Below, piece after piece: positions 42,877 through 64,000 of a stretch of 64,000 nucleotides of DNA (position 1 is its first letter; each line of letters begins with the position of its first letter). The translations under genes and the position numbers were made by a program. Location of the stretch: assembly GCF_004135385.1 (NCBI RefSeq), contig NZ_CP035493.1, positions 620,001 to 684,000 of the forward strand, given 5' to 3'. Origin of the DNA: Xylanimonas protaetiae (GTDB lineage: Bacteria; Actinomycetota; Actinomycetes; Actinomycetales; Cellulomonadaceae). Under the pieces are notes generated by a model. That model did not search any database. It had not been told where the DNA came from and saw nothing but the letters and a program-made list of their open reading frames with translations.

Positions 42877-43557
42877 TCAGGAGGCGCGCGCGAACACCAC
42901 GAGGTTGTCGGTGGCCGAGCCGCTCTCGCCCTGGCGCTGCAGGCACGTGATCAGCACGAGCTCGCCGTCGCGCCCGGCCGGGTCCCCCCAGACCTCCGCC
43001 GACGACGCCGCGTCGTCCTTGGACATCACCCGGTGGCCCGTGACCGTGTAGGCGACGCCGTCGACGAGGAGCACGTCACCGACCTCGACCGTGACGGGCG
43101 ACTCCGCGGCCTCCATCGCGAAGAACGCGTTCCCGGGGGCGTTCCCGCCGCGGACGGCATGCATCGCGAGGACGACGAGCCCCGACCCGGGCTCCTGCGG
43201 CGTCCCGTGCCCGCGCACCAGGAAGGCGTCGGTGAGGGTGGGCGGGTTGATGACGCCGTCCACGACGTTCATCGCGACGAGCGGCACGTCGAGCCCCTGA
43301 CGCGGGGCCACGAAGCGTCCCGCGCCGTCGGACCCCTCCTCGGGCAGCGCCACGGGGTCGGCCGCGGCGACGTCGGGGACGTCGTCGAGCACCACGCGGT
43401 TGCCGGACAGGTCGACGAGGCCACCGGGTGCGGGCCGCAGCGCCATGGAGGCGAGCACGCCGGCCCCGACCAGGCACGCGGCAGCGAAGAGCAGCGCGAC
43501 CACGCGCCCCGCCGACGGCCGACGACGGCGAGGAGCCTCGGGTGCGGGCGCGCTCAT
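42877..43557 (-). CDS. Sortase-family transpeptidase
   Basis: 226 residues. One N-terminal membrane helix (~19-40), then a sortase beta-barrel with catalytic His133 (L-A-M-H-A-V) and Cys205 (L-I-T-C-L-Q-R) with the Arg two residues on. No LPxTG-type substrate lies nearby. Starts four bases after the signal peptidase stop, so both are in one operon. Resembles class E/F housekeeping sortases; exact class uncertain. Confidence 0.8.
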   Translation of the reverse strand: MSAPAPEAPRRRRPSAGRVVALLFAAACLVGAGVLASMALRPAPGGLVDLSGNRVVLDDVPDVAAADPVALPEEGSDGAGRFVAPRQGLDVPLVAMNVVDGVINPPTLTDAFLVRGHGTPQEPGSGLVVLAMHAVRGGNAPGNAFFAMEAAESPVTVEVGDVLLVDGVAYTVTGHRVMSKDDAASSAEVWGDPAGRDGELVLITCLQRQGESGSATDNLVVFARAS

Positions 43558-43561
43558 GGGA

Positions 43562-44128
43562 TCACACCCCGTCCGCGGTCACGAGGCGGCGGGTCCAGGT
43601 GGGGCGCGGCGCGGCGGGGCCGACGAGGACCAGCGCCGTCGCGCCGACCAGCACCGCACCACCGAGCGTCACCGCCGCCAGCAGCCACGGCTGCTGCGCG
43701 ACCCGCCCCACGAGCGGCACCGCGTAGGCGACGCGGCCCTTGAGCTGCTCGCGGTCCATCGGCCCGTCGGGGTAGGGGCTGGCGTCGCCCTGCGTCTGGA
43801 GGTGCACCACCGCGCCGTCACGCACGACGACGTCGGTCACACGGGTCGTCACGACCTCGCCCGACCCCGGGACGGGACGGTAGGCGACGACGTCGCCGAC
43901 CTCGAGCAGCTCCGCGGGCACGGGCCGCACCACCACGAGGTCGCCGCGGGCCATCGACGGCTGCATCGAGTCGTTCGCGACGGCGAGCGGCACGGCTCCC
44001 ACGAGCCGCGGGGCCACCGTGACGGCGGCGACGAGCCCGAGGAGCGCCACGAGGAGCAGCGTGAGCGCGACCGAGCCGAGCGCGGGCGCGGGCCTCGTGC
44101 TGCTCGGCCGTGCGGGGGCGTGCACCAT
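43562..44128 (-). CDS. SipW-type signal peptidase I
   Basis: 188 residues, ATG with AAGGA upstream. N-terminal membrane helix (~18-38), then V-A-N-D-S54-M-Q-P-S-M with the nucleophilic Ser54, G-D-L-V-V-V, V-A-Y-R-P and a C-terminal membrane helix. The ER/archaeal-type (SipW) family uses Ser-His instead of Ser-Lys; T-Q-G-D-A-S-P-Y-P-D marks the last box. Often exports TasA-like or spaA-type proteins with a sortase partner, which is the next gene. Confidence 0.82.
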   Translation of the reverse strand: MVHAPARPSSTRPAPALGSVALTLLLVALLGLVAAVTVAPRLVGAVPLAVANDSMQPSMARGDLVVVRPVPAELLEVGDVVAYRPVPGSGEVVTTRVTDVVVRDGAVVHLQTQGDASPYPDGPMDREQLKGRVAYAVPLVGRVAQQPWLLAAVTLGGAVLVGATALVLVGPAAPRPTWTRRLVTADGV

Positions 44129-44360
44129 GCGGTCGGGTCCTTCCGGGTACTCGGCGGTCGTGCGGGTCGGCGGACGGCGCGCGCCGGTGGAGGGCACGCC
44201 TGTCGGACGACCAGCCTCGCCCGCGGGACCGGGGCGGACGTCACGTGACACCGGGAAGCACGGCCCGCGTGCGTGGTTCCTCGGGCGCACGACGCGCCTC
44301 GGGGCGACGCACCGTGCCGCCGGGGCGCCGTGGCGCCGGGCGCCCCGGATGTCGCGCGGC

Positions 44361-60445: not shown

Positions 60446-61117
60446 TCAGTGCGATGCGTCGGCCACGACCTGCTGAGCGATCACGACGACGTTGTGCGTC
60501 GTCGGGCGACGGCCCTGGTCCACTTCTCGGTGACAACCGATCAGGACGAGTCGCCCCGGAACCACGGCATTGACTCGGGGGTCGTCCGGGAGTGCGTCCT
60601 TCAAGATGGGCTCGAGAACCTCCTCGACGGCATAGTCGATCGAGCCGGCCTCGGTCACGATCGTGACGATCGTGCCAGGTTCGACGATGTGGATGTCGTT
60701 GAAGACCGCCTCGAACCGGGAGACGTGCCCGTAGAGATAGACGGTGTTCTCGGCCGGAGAGGCCGGTGTGCCACCGCCCTCCCACCAGGAGACGACGTCG
60801 TGCGTCGTCGGGTCGATCCAGCCGCCCGCAGCGGTGACCATGGCGTCGGTGTAGACCTCGATCGGCGCGTCGATCCCGAGGGCGGGCACGAGCAGCCTCA
60901 AAGGGGTCGCGGCAGGGATCGGAGAGAACTCGGGAGCCGTCCGCTCGGGAGGTGGCACAGAGATCGTCGGAGTAGGTATCGGCGGATACGCGAGCGCCGC
61001 CATCTCGGCTCGGTCGAGCAGGAGACCAGCAGCCGCCAACACTGTCCCCAGGCCGACCACGAGCCAGGGCAGGCGATGGCCCGGCCGCCGCGCCGTCAGG
61101 CGTGCGTGCCGGGCCAT
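60446..61117 (-). CDS. Class F-like sortase, module 1
   Basis: 223 residues. Membrane helix (~14-34), Pro/Thr-rich linker, then the sortase fold with A-P-I-E-V-Y-T-D-A-M, V-Y-L-Y-G-H131-V-S-R and catalytic Cys195 in V-L-I-G-C-H-R with R-R-P-T-T-H-N-V-V-V close behind. Directly downstream (36 bp) of the surface protein at 61153. The start ATG has no clear ribosome site; coupling to the upstream gene is possible. Nearly the same as the module 2 sortase. Confidence 0.85.
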   Translation of the reverse strand: MARHARLTARRPGHRLPWLVVGLGTVLAAAGLLLDRAEMAALAYPPIPTPTISVPPPERTAPEFSPIPAATPLRLLVPALGIDAPIEVYTDAMVTAAGGWIDPTTHDVVSWWEGGGTPASPAENTVYLYGHVSRFEAVFNDIHIVEPGTIVTIVTEAGSIDYAVEEVLEPILKDALPDDPRVNAVVPGRLVLIGCHREVDQGRRPTTHNVVVIAQQVVADASH

Positions 61118-61152
61118 CGTCTGGTGCTGGTGCGTTATCGGTGTGCCGCGGG

Positions 61153-62310
61153 TCAGGCGCGGGAGCGCTGACGACGGAGCAGACCGACGCCGACGCCGGC
61201 AGCGCCGAGGGCGAGGCCGAGCACGGTCAGGGCGGCAGGGTTGATGCCACCTTCGGCGTAGCCAGTCGCACCCTGAGGCACGGCATTGGTCGTCGTTCCG
61301 GTCTGTGCGGGTGCCGTAGGCGCCGCTGCGATAGTGATCGGTGCCCATGTCAGGACCTCACCCGTGAGATCGCTGACGACGAGACGGTGCGCACCGACCA
61401 CCGCGTCCTTGGGCACCGTCACGTTGACGGTGCCATCCGCCGCAACCATGAAGCGGCCGAGGAAGACCGGCTCCGAACGCAGCCAGACATCGACATACGT
61501 CCCCGCGTGCTCGGCGCCCACCTGCAGAGTGAGGGACTGTCCGACGGTCGCATCATTGTCGGCAACCAGGGTGGGGTTCGTCGGCACTGCGCCGATCGCT
61601 GCGTCCGACGGCGGGACCGGCGCGGGGTCCGGCGTCGGGTCAGGCGTCGGGTCCGGCGTGGGGTCCGGCGTCGGGTCAGGCGTGGGGTCCGGCGTCGGAG
61701 TCGGCGCGGCGAACGTGAAACGAAGGTTGCCGAACGACATGCTGTTGATCACGCCGTCGGCGTGAATACCTGATCCCAGCGAGAAGCCGACCGCGGTGAC
61801 TTTGGCCCCAGGGATCTTGCTACTCCACTCGGCAAGAGTGCCCCAGTAGTTCGATCCCTGCCCGCCTCCAGTATGCGGAGCTGCGTTCCGCAGTCCCGCA
61901 TTCGCGTCCGTATCAGGGGTCCACCAGTTGTCGCCGTAGACGGACTCGCCCACGAGAATGCCGAGCCGGTTTCCGTCAAGCGAGACCACGAGCTGCTTGC
62001 CTGGCGCCACAGATCCAGAGTTCTGGGTGAAGTCGATGGCGGGCGTCCCGATGTCCGCCAACGGGATGTCCACCGTGTAGTATGCCGCGACCTTCGCCAG
62101 ACTCGAGTTGTCGTCGGTCCAGATGCGAAGTCCGCTACCTTCCAGAAGCTCGTAGTGCCCGTTCGCCCGCGTGTCGGCAGTGTTCCAAGTGCTCATATCG
62201 GTGGTGTGAACGGTAGATGCTGCCTGTGCGGGTGCAGCGACAGCGAGCGCCGTTGCACCCGCAGCAGCAAGTGCTACGAGTGCGCCTACTCGGCGGTTGA
62301 TCGTCTTCAT
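61153..62310 (-). CDS. Secreted surface protein with sorting-like tail, module 1
   Basis: 385 residues; AAGGAG before ATG. Signal peptide ending near A-P-A-Q-A-A. Residues ~30-200 a beta-rich, unfamiliar domain. Residues ~205-235 are tandem (T-P-D-P)n repeats, a wall-spanning linker. Residues ~245-330 form a domain with F-L-G-R-F-M-V-A-A-D-G-T-V, shared with the module 2 protein. The end is N-A-V-P-Q-G-A-T-G-Y-A-E-G-G, a hydrophobic helix and R-R-Q-R-S-R-A: the shape of a sortase signal but without LPxTG. Likely the substrate of the adjacent sortase. Confidence 0.75.
   Translation of the reverse strand: MKTINRRVGALVALAAAGATALAVAAPAQAASTVHTTDMSTWNTADTRANGHYELLEGSGLRIWTDDNSSLAKVAAYYTVDIPLADIGTPAIDFTQNSGSVAPGKQLVVSLDGNRLGILVGESVYGDNWWTPDTDANAGLRNAAPHTGGGQGSNYWGTLAEWSSKIPGAKVTAVGFSLGSGIHADGVINSMSFGNLRFTFAAPTPTPDPTPDPTPDPTPDPTPDPTPDPAPVPPSDAAIGAVPTNPTLVADNDATVGQSLTLQVGAEHAGTYVDVWLRSEPVFLGRFMVAADGTVNVTVPKDAVVGAHRLVVSDLTGEVLTWAPITIAAAPTAPAQTGTTTNAVPQGATGYAEGGINPAALTVLGLALGAAGVGVGLLRRQRSRA
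61612..61695 (-). repeat. Tandem repeats encoding (TPDP)n
   Basis: About seven 12-bp units (GGCGTCGGGTCC type on the plus strand) within the surface protein gene. Length changes would keep the frame and alter linker length. Confidence 0.8.
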
Positions 62311-62791
62311 AGTCAGTCTCCTTCATTGCCCGACTTCTCAGAAGGTCGTCGAAGCAGTGGTTTTCTGATGCGCCGACCCTAGGAGAGATAGCCCAGCGTC
62401 CGCTGCTCTGGCACGCAGTGATCGTTGCCTGCACTAACAGGTTTACCCTTCGATGCCTTGTATGGACTCGATCTTGATCTGCGCGTGGTTTCTGAGGCAA
62501 ACTCTTCTCGGCGCCTCAGGCAGTGAGCGGGGAGCGCGGCCGGTTCTGGTTGCCAGATCGAACCCACGTCATCGTGTCTGTTCGCTCCAACCGAATGGTC
62601 CACCCATACAGACCGATCCACCCGCCAGCTCAACAGCCGGCGCGGCTTCGACGTTCGGTCTGGTCATGACGACGACCCTCGCGCAGGTGGCGCTTTGCTT
62701 CGCGCACGTCGGGTACCCACGTCGACGTATCGGGTATCAGACAGAGAAAGCGCGACGCACCCTGCAGCGTCGCGCTTTCTTCAGCATCTGA
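62311..62791. other. AT-richer intergenic region between the two modules
   Basis: 481 bp, noticeably lower in GC than the rest of the window. It holds the module 1 promoter (no clear -35/-10 pair found) and the terminator at 62745-62780. A 112-codon open frame on the plus strand (62453-62791) lacks a ribosome site and runs through the terminator, so I do not count it as a gene. Confidence 0.55.
62745..62780. terminator. Terminator of module 2 sortase
   Basis: A perfect 14-bp stem AGAAAGCGCGACGC/GCGTCGCGCTTTCT with an 8-nt loop and T-rich ends in both directions, 12 bases after the sortase stop. The most classical intrinsic terminator in the window. Confidence 0.8.
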
Positions 62792-63514
62792 TCACTTCGC
62801 GGAATCAACCTGATGGGCGATAACCACGATGTTGTGCGTCGTCCGCCGGCGACCCTGGTCGGGCTCGCGGTAGCAGCCGATGAGGACGAGACGCCCGGGA
62901 ACCTGCGCGTTGATCCGGGGATCGTCGGGCAGCGCTTCCTTGCCGACGGGTTCGAGAACCTCCTGCACGACGTAAACGATCTCCCCGGCTTCCGTCACGA
63001 CGGTGACCTCGGTGCCAGGCACAACGCTATGGAGATAGTTGAAGACCGCCTCGAGCCGCGAGACGTGCCCGTAGAGGTACACCGTGTTGTCGGGGTCGGA
63101 TGACGGTGTCCCGCCCCCCTGCCACCAGGAGACGACGTCGTGCGTGGTCGGGTCGATCCAGCCGTCCGCCGCTGCCACCATGGCGTCGGTGTAGACCTCG
63201 ATGGGCGCATCGACCCCGATGGCGGGGATGAGCACACGGACTGGTGTTGCTGCGGGGACCACGAGTGGCGCCTCGACCTCCGGTTCCGGCTCGGGCGTGG
63301 CGACAGGCGCCGGATCCGGCACCTCGACCGCTACATCGCTACCCGAGGAAGCCAGATCGAACGGCGCGCTCGCGCTGAGGGCCGATACCGTCAACGCGAG
63401 CAACGCCGCCAGGGTCACGAAGCGGCGGCGCTGAGGGCCCCGTCGCGGGTCGGTCCCGACACGACGACCGTGCCGGGGACCCCGCCACGGAACAGAAGGC
63501 AGAGTCTCCGGCAC
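62792..63514 (-). CDS. Class F-like sortase, module 2
   Basis: 240 residues from GTG with AGGAG nine bases upstream. Basic N-terminus, membrane helix (~34-52), Pro/Glu-rich linker, then A-P-I-E-V-Y-T-D-A-M, L-Y-G-H150-V-S-R and catalytic Cys214 in V-L-I-G-C-Y-R followed by R-R-R-T-T-H-N. Very similar to module 1 in the catalytic part, different in the N-terminal linker. Starts 27 bases after the module 2 surface protein stop. Confidence 0.87.
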   Translation of the reverse strand: MPETLPSVPWRGPRHGRRVGTDPRRGPQRRRFVTLAALLALTVSALSASAPFDLASSGSDVAVEVPDPAPVATPEPEPEVEAPLVVPAATPVRVLIPAIGVDAPIEVYTDAMVAAADGWIDPTTHDVVSWWQGGGTPSSDPDNTVYLYGHVSRLEAVFNYLHSVVPGTEVTVVTEAGEIVYVVQEVLEPVGKEALPDDPRINAQVPGRLVLIGCYREPDQGRRRTTHNIVVIAHQVDSAK

Positions 63515-63540
63515 GGTCAGTCTCCTAGATAACGATCGGC

Positions 63541-64000
63541 TCAGGCGCGGACGCGACGGACGACGAGCGTCCCCAGCGACACGACAGCAAGGCCCGCGAG
63601 GGTTGCAAGTGCGACGTGCAGCGGCTCCACGCCACCCTCGGCCCATCCGGTGGCGCCGCGCGGCACCGCGTTGGCCGCGCCACCCGTAGCAGTCGTGCCC
63701 GGGGCCGCGGCGATCGCGACCTCCGTCCAGGCGACAACCTCGCCGGTCGCGGCGTCCGCCACGGTGAGACGGTGGTCCCCAGCGAGCGTCGCGGGCACCT
63801 TCACGTCGACAGTGCCGTCAGCGGCGACCAGGAACCGACCCAGGAACACGGGGTCGGAGAAGAGGAAGACGTCAACCCACGTCCCGGCCAGGTGAGTACC
63901 GACGTAGACGTTCAGCCCGGCACCGGCGGTGACGTTCTGACCCGCCGGAACCAGCGTCCCGGAACGCAGCTCGGTCGTCAGGTCAGCGACGGGCGGAGCG
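63541..64000 (-). CDS. Secreted surface protein with sorting-like tail, module 2 (partial)
   Basis: 152 C-terminal residues; the frame is open at the window edge, so the start is missing. It has V-F-L-G-R-F-L-V-A-A-D-G-T-V as in module 1, then N-A-V-P-R-G-A-T-G-W-A-E-G-G, a hydrophobic helix and R-R-V-R-A. Identical layout of the tail to module 1 shows the motif is conserved, while the sequence between differs, supporting functional selection on GATG(Y/W)AEGG. Confidence 0.78.
   Translation of the reverse strand, partial: APPVADLTTELRSGTLVPAGQNVTAGAGLNVYVGTHLAGTWVDVFLFSDPVFLGRFLVAADGTVDVKVPATLAGDHRLTVADAATGEVVAWTEVAIAAAPGTTATGGAANAVPRGATGWAEGGVEPLHVALATLAGLAVVSLGTLVVRRVRA

Follow-up and report, generated by a model that had tools for sequence, protein, structure and literature searches.

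In the available parts of the literature, the role of class F sortases is stated as unknown (PMC13251363, PMC6998099), their catalytic Arg is described as replaced by Asn in actinobacteria (PMC6998099), and LPXTG recognition is reported for the Cutibacterium acnes enzyme (PMC13257024). According to the accessible text of PMC13251363, Actinoplanes missouriensis has four class F sortases, a quadruple mutant showed no phenotypic change, and two adjacent tail proteins were set aside for want of a pentapeptide motif, yet were called possible substrates. Class B (NPXTN) and class D (LPXTA) sortases, as described in the accessible part of PMC5148588, are precedents for signals of a class's own and for a P1' residue other than Gly. 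Here we describe two gene modules at the right end of a 64,000-nucleotide window of Xylanimonas protaetiae (positions 620001-684000 of a single-contig genome of 3.86 Mb), each made of a secreted, helix-tailed surface protein followed by a class F-like sortase. Sequence comparison makes it probable that each module is a private sortase-substrate pair with a non-canonical signal, and that the surface protein is cleaved after Thr and anchored to the wall.

Both modules lie on the minus strand and are built alike. Module 1 consists of surface protein 1 (61153-62310, 385 aa, defined by its open reading frame (ORF) and translation) and sortase 1 (60446-61117, 223 aa), and module 2 of surface protein 2 (63541-64917, 458 aa) and sortase 2 (62792-63514, 240 aa, GTG start), with a spacing from protein to sortase of 35 bp and 26 bp, respectively. 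The long ORF of sortase 1 overlaps protein 1, and its likely start is a later ATG at 61117. The gene for protein 2 is complete in locus L007, and the window holds its C-terminal part (63541-64000), comprising stalk, tail, helix and basic end. Both proteins have, by eye, an N-terminal Sec-type signal peptide. In protein 1 this is followed by a head, a PDPT-rich linker, an immunoglobulin (Ig)-like stalk (by eye), the sorting tail, the helix and the basic end; the stalk of protein 2 was likewise taken as Ig-like by eye, and no Pfam family scored above its cut-off on the heads of the two proteins.

The tail signal of protein 1 is NAVPQGATGYAEGG (61246-61287, minus strand; Thr codon 61264-61266, Gly codon 61261-61263), and the sequence then runs into a hydrophobic helix and a basic C-terminus (61156-61245, minus strand). 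The corresponding signal of protein 2 is NAVPRGATGWAEGG (63631-63672, minus strand), and here too a hydrophobic helix and a basic end come next. The consensus of both is NAVP[QR]GATG[YW]AEGG ahead of the helix and an Arg-rich end. A preliminary description of this DNA had reported that two surface proteins share the tail N-A-V-P-x-G-A-T-G-[YW]-A-E-G-G before a helix and a basic end, and that LPxTG and LAxTG are absent. The translations bear this out, and no LPxTG or LAxTG pentapeptide occurs in the full sequence of protein 1 or protein 2. The helix and basic end past the motif, a feature of the LPXTG-type sorting signal (TIGR01167), were found in both proteins.

The two sortases had been called nearly identical and class F-like, with intact His and Cys. 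They share 60% identity over their full length and 69% over the domain, so that "nearly identical" does not hold, while the resemblance to class F stands, albeit below the cut-off of the class model. His131 (codon 60725-60727), Cys195 (60533-60535) and Asn209 (60491-60493) of sortase 1 correspond to His150 (63065-63067), Cys214 (62873-62875) and Asn228 (62831-62833) of sortase 2. The presumed catalytic His and Cys are invariant across 34 aligned sortases and are present in both window enzymes, intact as described. The Asn is likewise invariant in 34/34, bona fide class F rows among them; in line with PMC6998099, and with an alignment made up of sortases that lack this Arg, we presume that this column is the position of the usual catalytic Arg.

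The sortase superfamily model PF04203 scored 41.1 and 45.9 bits on the window sortases (gathering score 26.6), and both have the sortase fold. Their only NCBIfam match at E ≤ 1 was the class F model NF033748, which scored 50.9 and 59.4 bits against a curated cut-off of 166; in the same search, neither enzyme matched the class C pilus sortase model (NF033745) or the class E models at E ≤ 1. In a tree of 90 of 115 sequences, from which 25 of 49 bona fide class F rows had been thinned out and which included no class A-E sortase, the remaining 24 bona fide class F rows and the window clade lay on opposite sides of a 100/100 branch. The window sortases resemble class F (NF033748; Cutibacterium acnes, Streptomyces/Actinoplanes type) in their only NCBIfam match, in the invariant Asn and in having LPxTG-free upstream partners with a transmembrane (TM) tail, whereas they differ from it in model score, in falling across that branch, and in tails of the form N-x(6)-T-[GD], as opposed to [TASG]GxGG beside bona fide class F enzymes and to the LPXTG reported for C. 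acnes.

In the mechanism that we propose, Sec would export the surface protein, whose C-terminal helix and basic end would then keep it in the membrane. The class F-like sortase from the gene immediately downstream would recognise N-x-V-P-x-[G/A]-A-T-G ahead of the helix, its Cys would attack the Thr-Gly bond, and the protein would pass from the thioester to a peptidoglycan precursor and so to the cell wall. The local signal would be a version of a wider N-x(6)-T-[G/D] that keeps Asn at P8, a small P3, Thr at P1 and Gly or Asp at P1' but not the Leu-Pro of LPxTG. That the adjacent sortase cuts the tail, that it does so after Thr, and that the cell wall is the acceptor are points we infer, with the Cys attack and the transfer to the wall deduced from what the sortase family does.

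We assessed how tail and sortase are distributed among relatives. The sortase was present (E ≤ 1e-20) in 3 of 11 genus genomes and in 3 of 200 genomes of a family sample, all three being in the genus. The tail profile matched the same 3 of the 11; as this profile was built from those tails, the real test lies in the other eight genomes and in the lack of further tails. All four genus tails adjoin such a sortase, those of the relatives reading N[QR]VPRAATGYAEGG. The preliminary description had proposed a tail profile with a co-occurrence check, and had named a tail lacking a nearby sortase as the contrary case; such a tail was looked for in the 11 genus genomes and was not found. Within the X. 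protaetiae genome, the only convincing tail matches were the two window tails (E 2.9e-23, the query itself, and 1.6e-6), and the third and last match (E 0.53) fell in a 437-aa open frame whose translation looked non-coding by eye. In one relative, G051 (L020:7445-9048, minus strand), the substrate gene is split between two frames that diverge within the proline-rich linker, reflecting either a frame break or a sequencing error.

The sortase profile, applied at E ≤ 1e-20 to 396 order-level genomes, found five genomes besides X. protaetiae, all outside the family. The tails beside the sortase read NxVPxAxTDGA in G536 (three tandem pairs) and G497 (two pairs), NTLHDSRTDGF in G410 and NPGLRSNTGVE in G224. 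Sortase and tail protein multiply jointly, with two modules in the window, three in tandem in G536 and at least two in Pedococcus cremeus; the Pedococcus tail peptide is NAVPQAATDGADL. Same-clade sortases of other families thus adjoin tails with an Asn and, seven residues later, Thr followed by Gly or Asp, which supports N-x(6)-T-[GD] as the conserved core, rather than VPxGATG as such. Co-occurrence and adjacency support the earlier proposal of a new sorting signal, in or near VPxGATG, that the adjacent sortase would read, but the signal would be this core and not VPxGATG itself. Other arrangements were also seen: in G236 the sortase neighbours finish in LPVIETGI with no helix, and F-like sortases stand beside secreted proteins without a C-terminal helix at L041:1349-4011, where two end in LPVIETGI(GL), and at L116:3676-5543, where one ends in GLPRASNDVPTS.

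To these a named collection added 55 loci, mainly from Cryobacterium, Geodermatophilaceae (Geodermatophilus, Blastococcus, Modestobacter), Pseudokineococcus, Arthrobacter-type and Leifsonia. The counted set comprised 66 F-like sortases at 62 loci, obtained from 67 ORFs after exclusion of one fragment of the split L117 gene; L039 was left out as coming from the same genome as L092, and L146 gave no sortase ORF. Genes were picked by codon G+C bias, with no trained gene finder, and this missed the partners of L115, L137 and L144. An upstream same-strand ORF was called for 64 of the 66 sortases, 50 of these ORFs having a helix-plus-basic tail. Of the 64 ORFs, 49 had N-x(6)-T-[GDA] and 48 had N-x(6)-T-[GD]; counting only the 50 with helix tails, N-x(6)-T-[GDA] was present in 48. 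When the residues before the helix were shuffled (2000 trials), N-x(6)-T-[GD] was found in a mean of 2.35 and a maximum of 8 sequences, versus 48 observed, and N-x(6)-T-[GDA] in a mean of 4.6 and a maximum of 14, versus 49. Two more motif partners read by eye (L137, L144) bring the total to 51 of 66 sortases. Among the 54 loci unused in spotting the motif (L093-L146), the script found it in 38, or 40 with L137 and L144. The protein stands directly upstream of the sortase on the same strand, an order conserved across loci. As a control, other helix-tail ORFs in the same loci carried the motif in 7 of 42 cases; one of the seven is the L144 partner, and the other six lie in the same clusters and resemble second substrates. 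Two pentapeptide flags arose among the F-like partners, LAGTG downstream of the motif in L096 and LADTG upstream of it and far from the helix in L138.

The search pattern itself fixed Asn (position 1) and Thr (position 8) and allowed Ala at position 9. Among 43 distinct motifs, position 6 (P3) was Ser, Ala or Gly in 41 and position 9 (P1') was Gly or Asp in 42, while the filler residues were wholly different between families (VPRGA, VPQAA, LHDSK, GLRSN). These results bear on the idea that the sortase cuts the tail elsewhere than after Thr, for instance near VP or inside YAEGG. AEGG and VP are likewise invariant in the four genus tails, as such a cut would allow; between families they vary, and T-[GD] recurs at a fixed distance from Asn in the 48 upstream ORFs. 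T-G is also named as a scissile bond in the accessible part of PMC5148588, and we regard a cut elsewhere as very unlikely. P1' is Asp in Pedococcus and Cryobacterium relatives. Classes B and D set the precedent in this respect, although they are other sortase families and the motif of the window clade is longer. In the sortases themselves, residue 95 (L007:6793-7314, minus strand) is Lys or Arg in 15 of 16 enzymes beside T-D tails and Met, Leu, His, Val or Thr beside T-G tails (31). It may be a P1' contact, but there are 14 such columns and clades are confounded.

Several results weigh against private pairs of this kind. Even after the two corrections by eye, 15 of the 66 sortases have no N-x(6)-T partner: three adjoin other TM tails (L104, L119, L115), and the search immediately upstream of the other 12 gave no helix-tail protein. 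Eight of the 12 form one Arthrobacter/Leifsonia-type clade (L108, L112, L118, L124, L125, L128, L130, L132). Within the genus, G009 carries a second such sortase that lacks a neighbouring tail protein. This enzyme is 73% identical to sortase 2 and groups with sortase 1 in the tree, and its cluster (L021:806-6352) holds, by eye, two SipW-type signal peptidases and small secreted proteins. Across the 396 order-level genomes the tail profile gave nothing convincing beyond X. protaetiae itself, and the exact VPxGATG form is therefore confined to the genus, as far as sampled. The sequence types map onto the sortase tree with 8 changes (minimum 5, shuffled mean 52), where the sortase model, rather than the tail, defined the bona fide class F label, and where the L117 piece was labelled as having no motif though its locus has one. 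This agreement is partly due to shared descent, because tail type and sortase clade both follow taxonomy. The last two points, the inferential basis of cleavage and localisation and a match of tail 1 to a general anchor model, each lend themselves to a different explanation.

Given that basis, the surface proteins could be plain tail-anchored membrane proteins in which the stretch before the helix is no cleavage signal, and tail-anchored exported proteins do exist in actinobacteria according to the accessible text of PMC10924467. We consider this unlikely, as it leaves unaccounted for both the position-specific motif before the helix, which most members of several families carry at a frequency well beyond that in shuffles, and an immediate neighbour that is a sortase with its catalytic residues.

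The general anchor model is LPXTG_anchor of NCBI, which reaches its cut-off on the protein 1 tail (15.5 bits; 15.9 with neighbours), matching at model positions 6-33 only, that is, the helix and basic part; use of the tail by general sortases is thus conceivable. The tails would then be ordinary ones served by class E or C sortases, with GATG as a degenerate LAxTG, and the F-like sortases would do other work. The genome does contain class E sortases, one above and one below the cut-off, and one class C sortase, and xATG looks like the end of LAxTG. Streptomyces coelicolor SrtE1, a class E enzyme that works with LAXTG in the accessible text of PMC5148588, resembles the window system in a small P3 and a T-G scissile bond, whereas the window tails lack Leu at P4, have Asn at P8 and belong to a private adjacent substrate. 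None of the four genus tails has Leu at P4, which is Arg or Gln instead; the 11 genus genomes either contain both tail and F-like sortase or lack both; and N-x(6)-T also turns up next to this sortase clade in other families, with different filler residues. Service by class E or C enzymes is accordingly improbable.

Conventional tails were found in the same genome, which encodes six helix tails with LPRTG, LPVTG, MPRTG and LPQTG (L071-L075, L078). The class C sortase gene stands directly before an LPRTG protein gene (L011:3866-6272, minus strand), an arrangement that may be a pilus-type cluster of the conventional sort. The stalk of protein 2 has a match in G051 (40% identity, E 1.6e-10), within a large protein that by eye resembles glycoside hydrolases and whose tail is an ordinary LPITG one. 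A similar stalk therefore goes with either tail, and the sortase partner would decide which.

The class C cluster is also relevant to whether the pairs build a pilus-like polymer, as class C sortases do. The tandem of two paralogous surface proteins and two sortases might suggest such a polymer. However, each window sortase is paired with a single substrate, neither enzyme matched the class C model, and a separate class C sortase with its own LPRTG protein is at hand in the genome. Since one substrate per sortase and the missing class C match disfavour a pilus, we rate this reading as extremely unlikely. The suggestion that the signal serves a distinct surface structure found no support either: each sortase has a single substrate, and the window showed no pilin-type gene set.

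For comparison, we examined bona fide class F loci. The class F model matched 141 of 246 class-level genomes at E ≤ 1e-12, 105 of them above the cut-off, and 50 loci were taken (the 30 best matches and 20 picked across families). A helix-tail protein was called directly upstream in 40 of the 50, the other ten having no TM-tail partner called. By script, [TASG]GxGG was present in 32 of these 40 partners, typically as PRGSVKTGVGG or PRGGVHTGGGG, and N-x(6)-T in just 1 of 40. None of the 40 upstream tail proteins had a credible LPxTG or LAxTG. One ORF in L162 was flagged for LPGTG, and another TM-tail ORF at that locus (...GGFGG.. before the helix) was taken as the real partner. Because the 40 partners have no credible LPxTG, its absence beside class F-type sortases looks general, with the window representing one of at least two signal types. 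In A. missouriensis, srtF1 and srtF4 with AMIS_11010 and AMIS_36440 are alike in that a class F sortase adjoins a secreted protein with a TM segment and a basic end and no pentapeptide; in contrast to the pairs considered here, no motif was proposed and the pair was not analysed further in the accessible text of PMC13251363, with which we compare by description only.

A broader model would cast the class F and F-like sortases of actinobacteria as private transpeptidases, each co-encoded with its substrate and reading no pentapeptide, the window clade reading a nine-residue N-x(6)-T|[G/D], with recognition of Asn at P8 and tolerance of Asp at P1', and the bona fide clade a Gly-rich [TAS]|GxGG. 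We see the case for this model as evenly balanced. Signals of the N-x(6)-T-[GD] or GxGG type are not described in the available text of PMC13251363, PMC5148588, PMC6998099, PMC10924467, PMC13257024 and PMC8361268, the search covering a PubMed Central subset, with subscription literature outside it. The pairing of sortase and substrate is well supported, its function is reasoned from that pairing, and any priority extends to the subset searched. Related pairs in several actinobacterial families point to a testable candidate for the substrates of class F-type sortases. If true, the broader model would explain why LPxTG-based substrate searches miss class F sortase targets. A compact signal rule would make class F substrates findable by sequence, class F sortases being common in actinobacteria. 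Orthogonal non-LPxTG sortases, perhaps with T|D cleavage, could also be useful for protein ligation.

Between the two modules, 12 bases past sortase 2, lies a terminator-like hairpin with a perfect 13-bp stem (62746-62779, minus strand). A 61-nt stretch containing it folds at -31.7 kcal/mol (z -4.7), and 0 of 200 shuffles were equally stable. With this hairpin behind sortase 2, the two modules are probably separate transcription units. A simple consensus scan, in which a terminator required a T run, gave no promoter and no terminator, and did not list this hairpin. A tandem repeat of 12/36 bp (61603-61698) encodes the PDPT-rich linker of protein 1.

Three members of the Arthrobacter/Leifsonia-type clade were viewed (L108, L118, L124), and in each the F-like sortase sits in an apparent ABC-transporter operon with a large secreted protein whose helix tail is of another type (..SSRGWGQPQ.., ..TGNDGWAGPQ.., ..AGTNGWGSKE..). 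The window also holds a third class F-like sortase (42877-44290, minus strand), which at 28.0 bits is barely above the Pfam cut-off; by eye, it adjoins a SipW-like signal peptidase and lies near folA/thyA. In G009 and G051, the tail-sortase pair itself sits beside folA/thyA.

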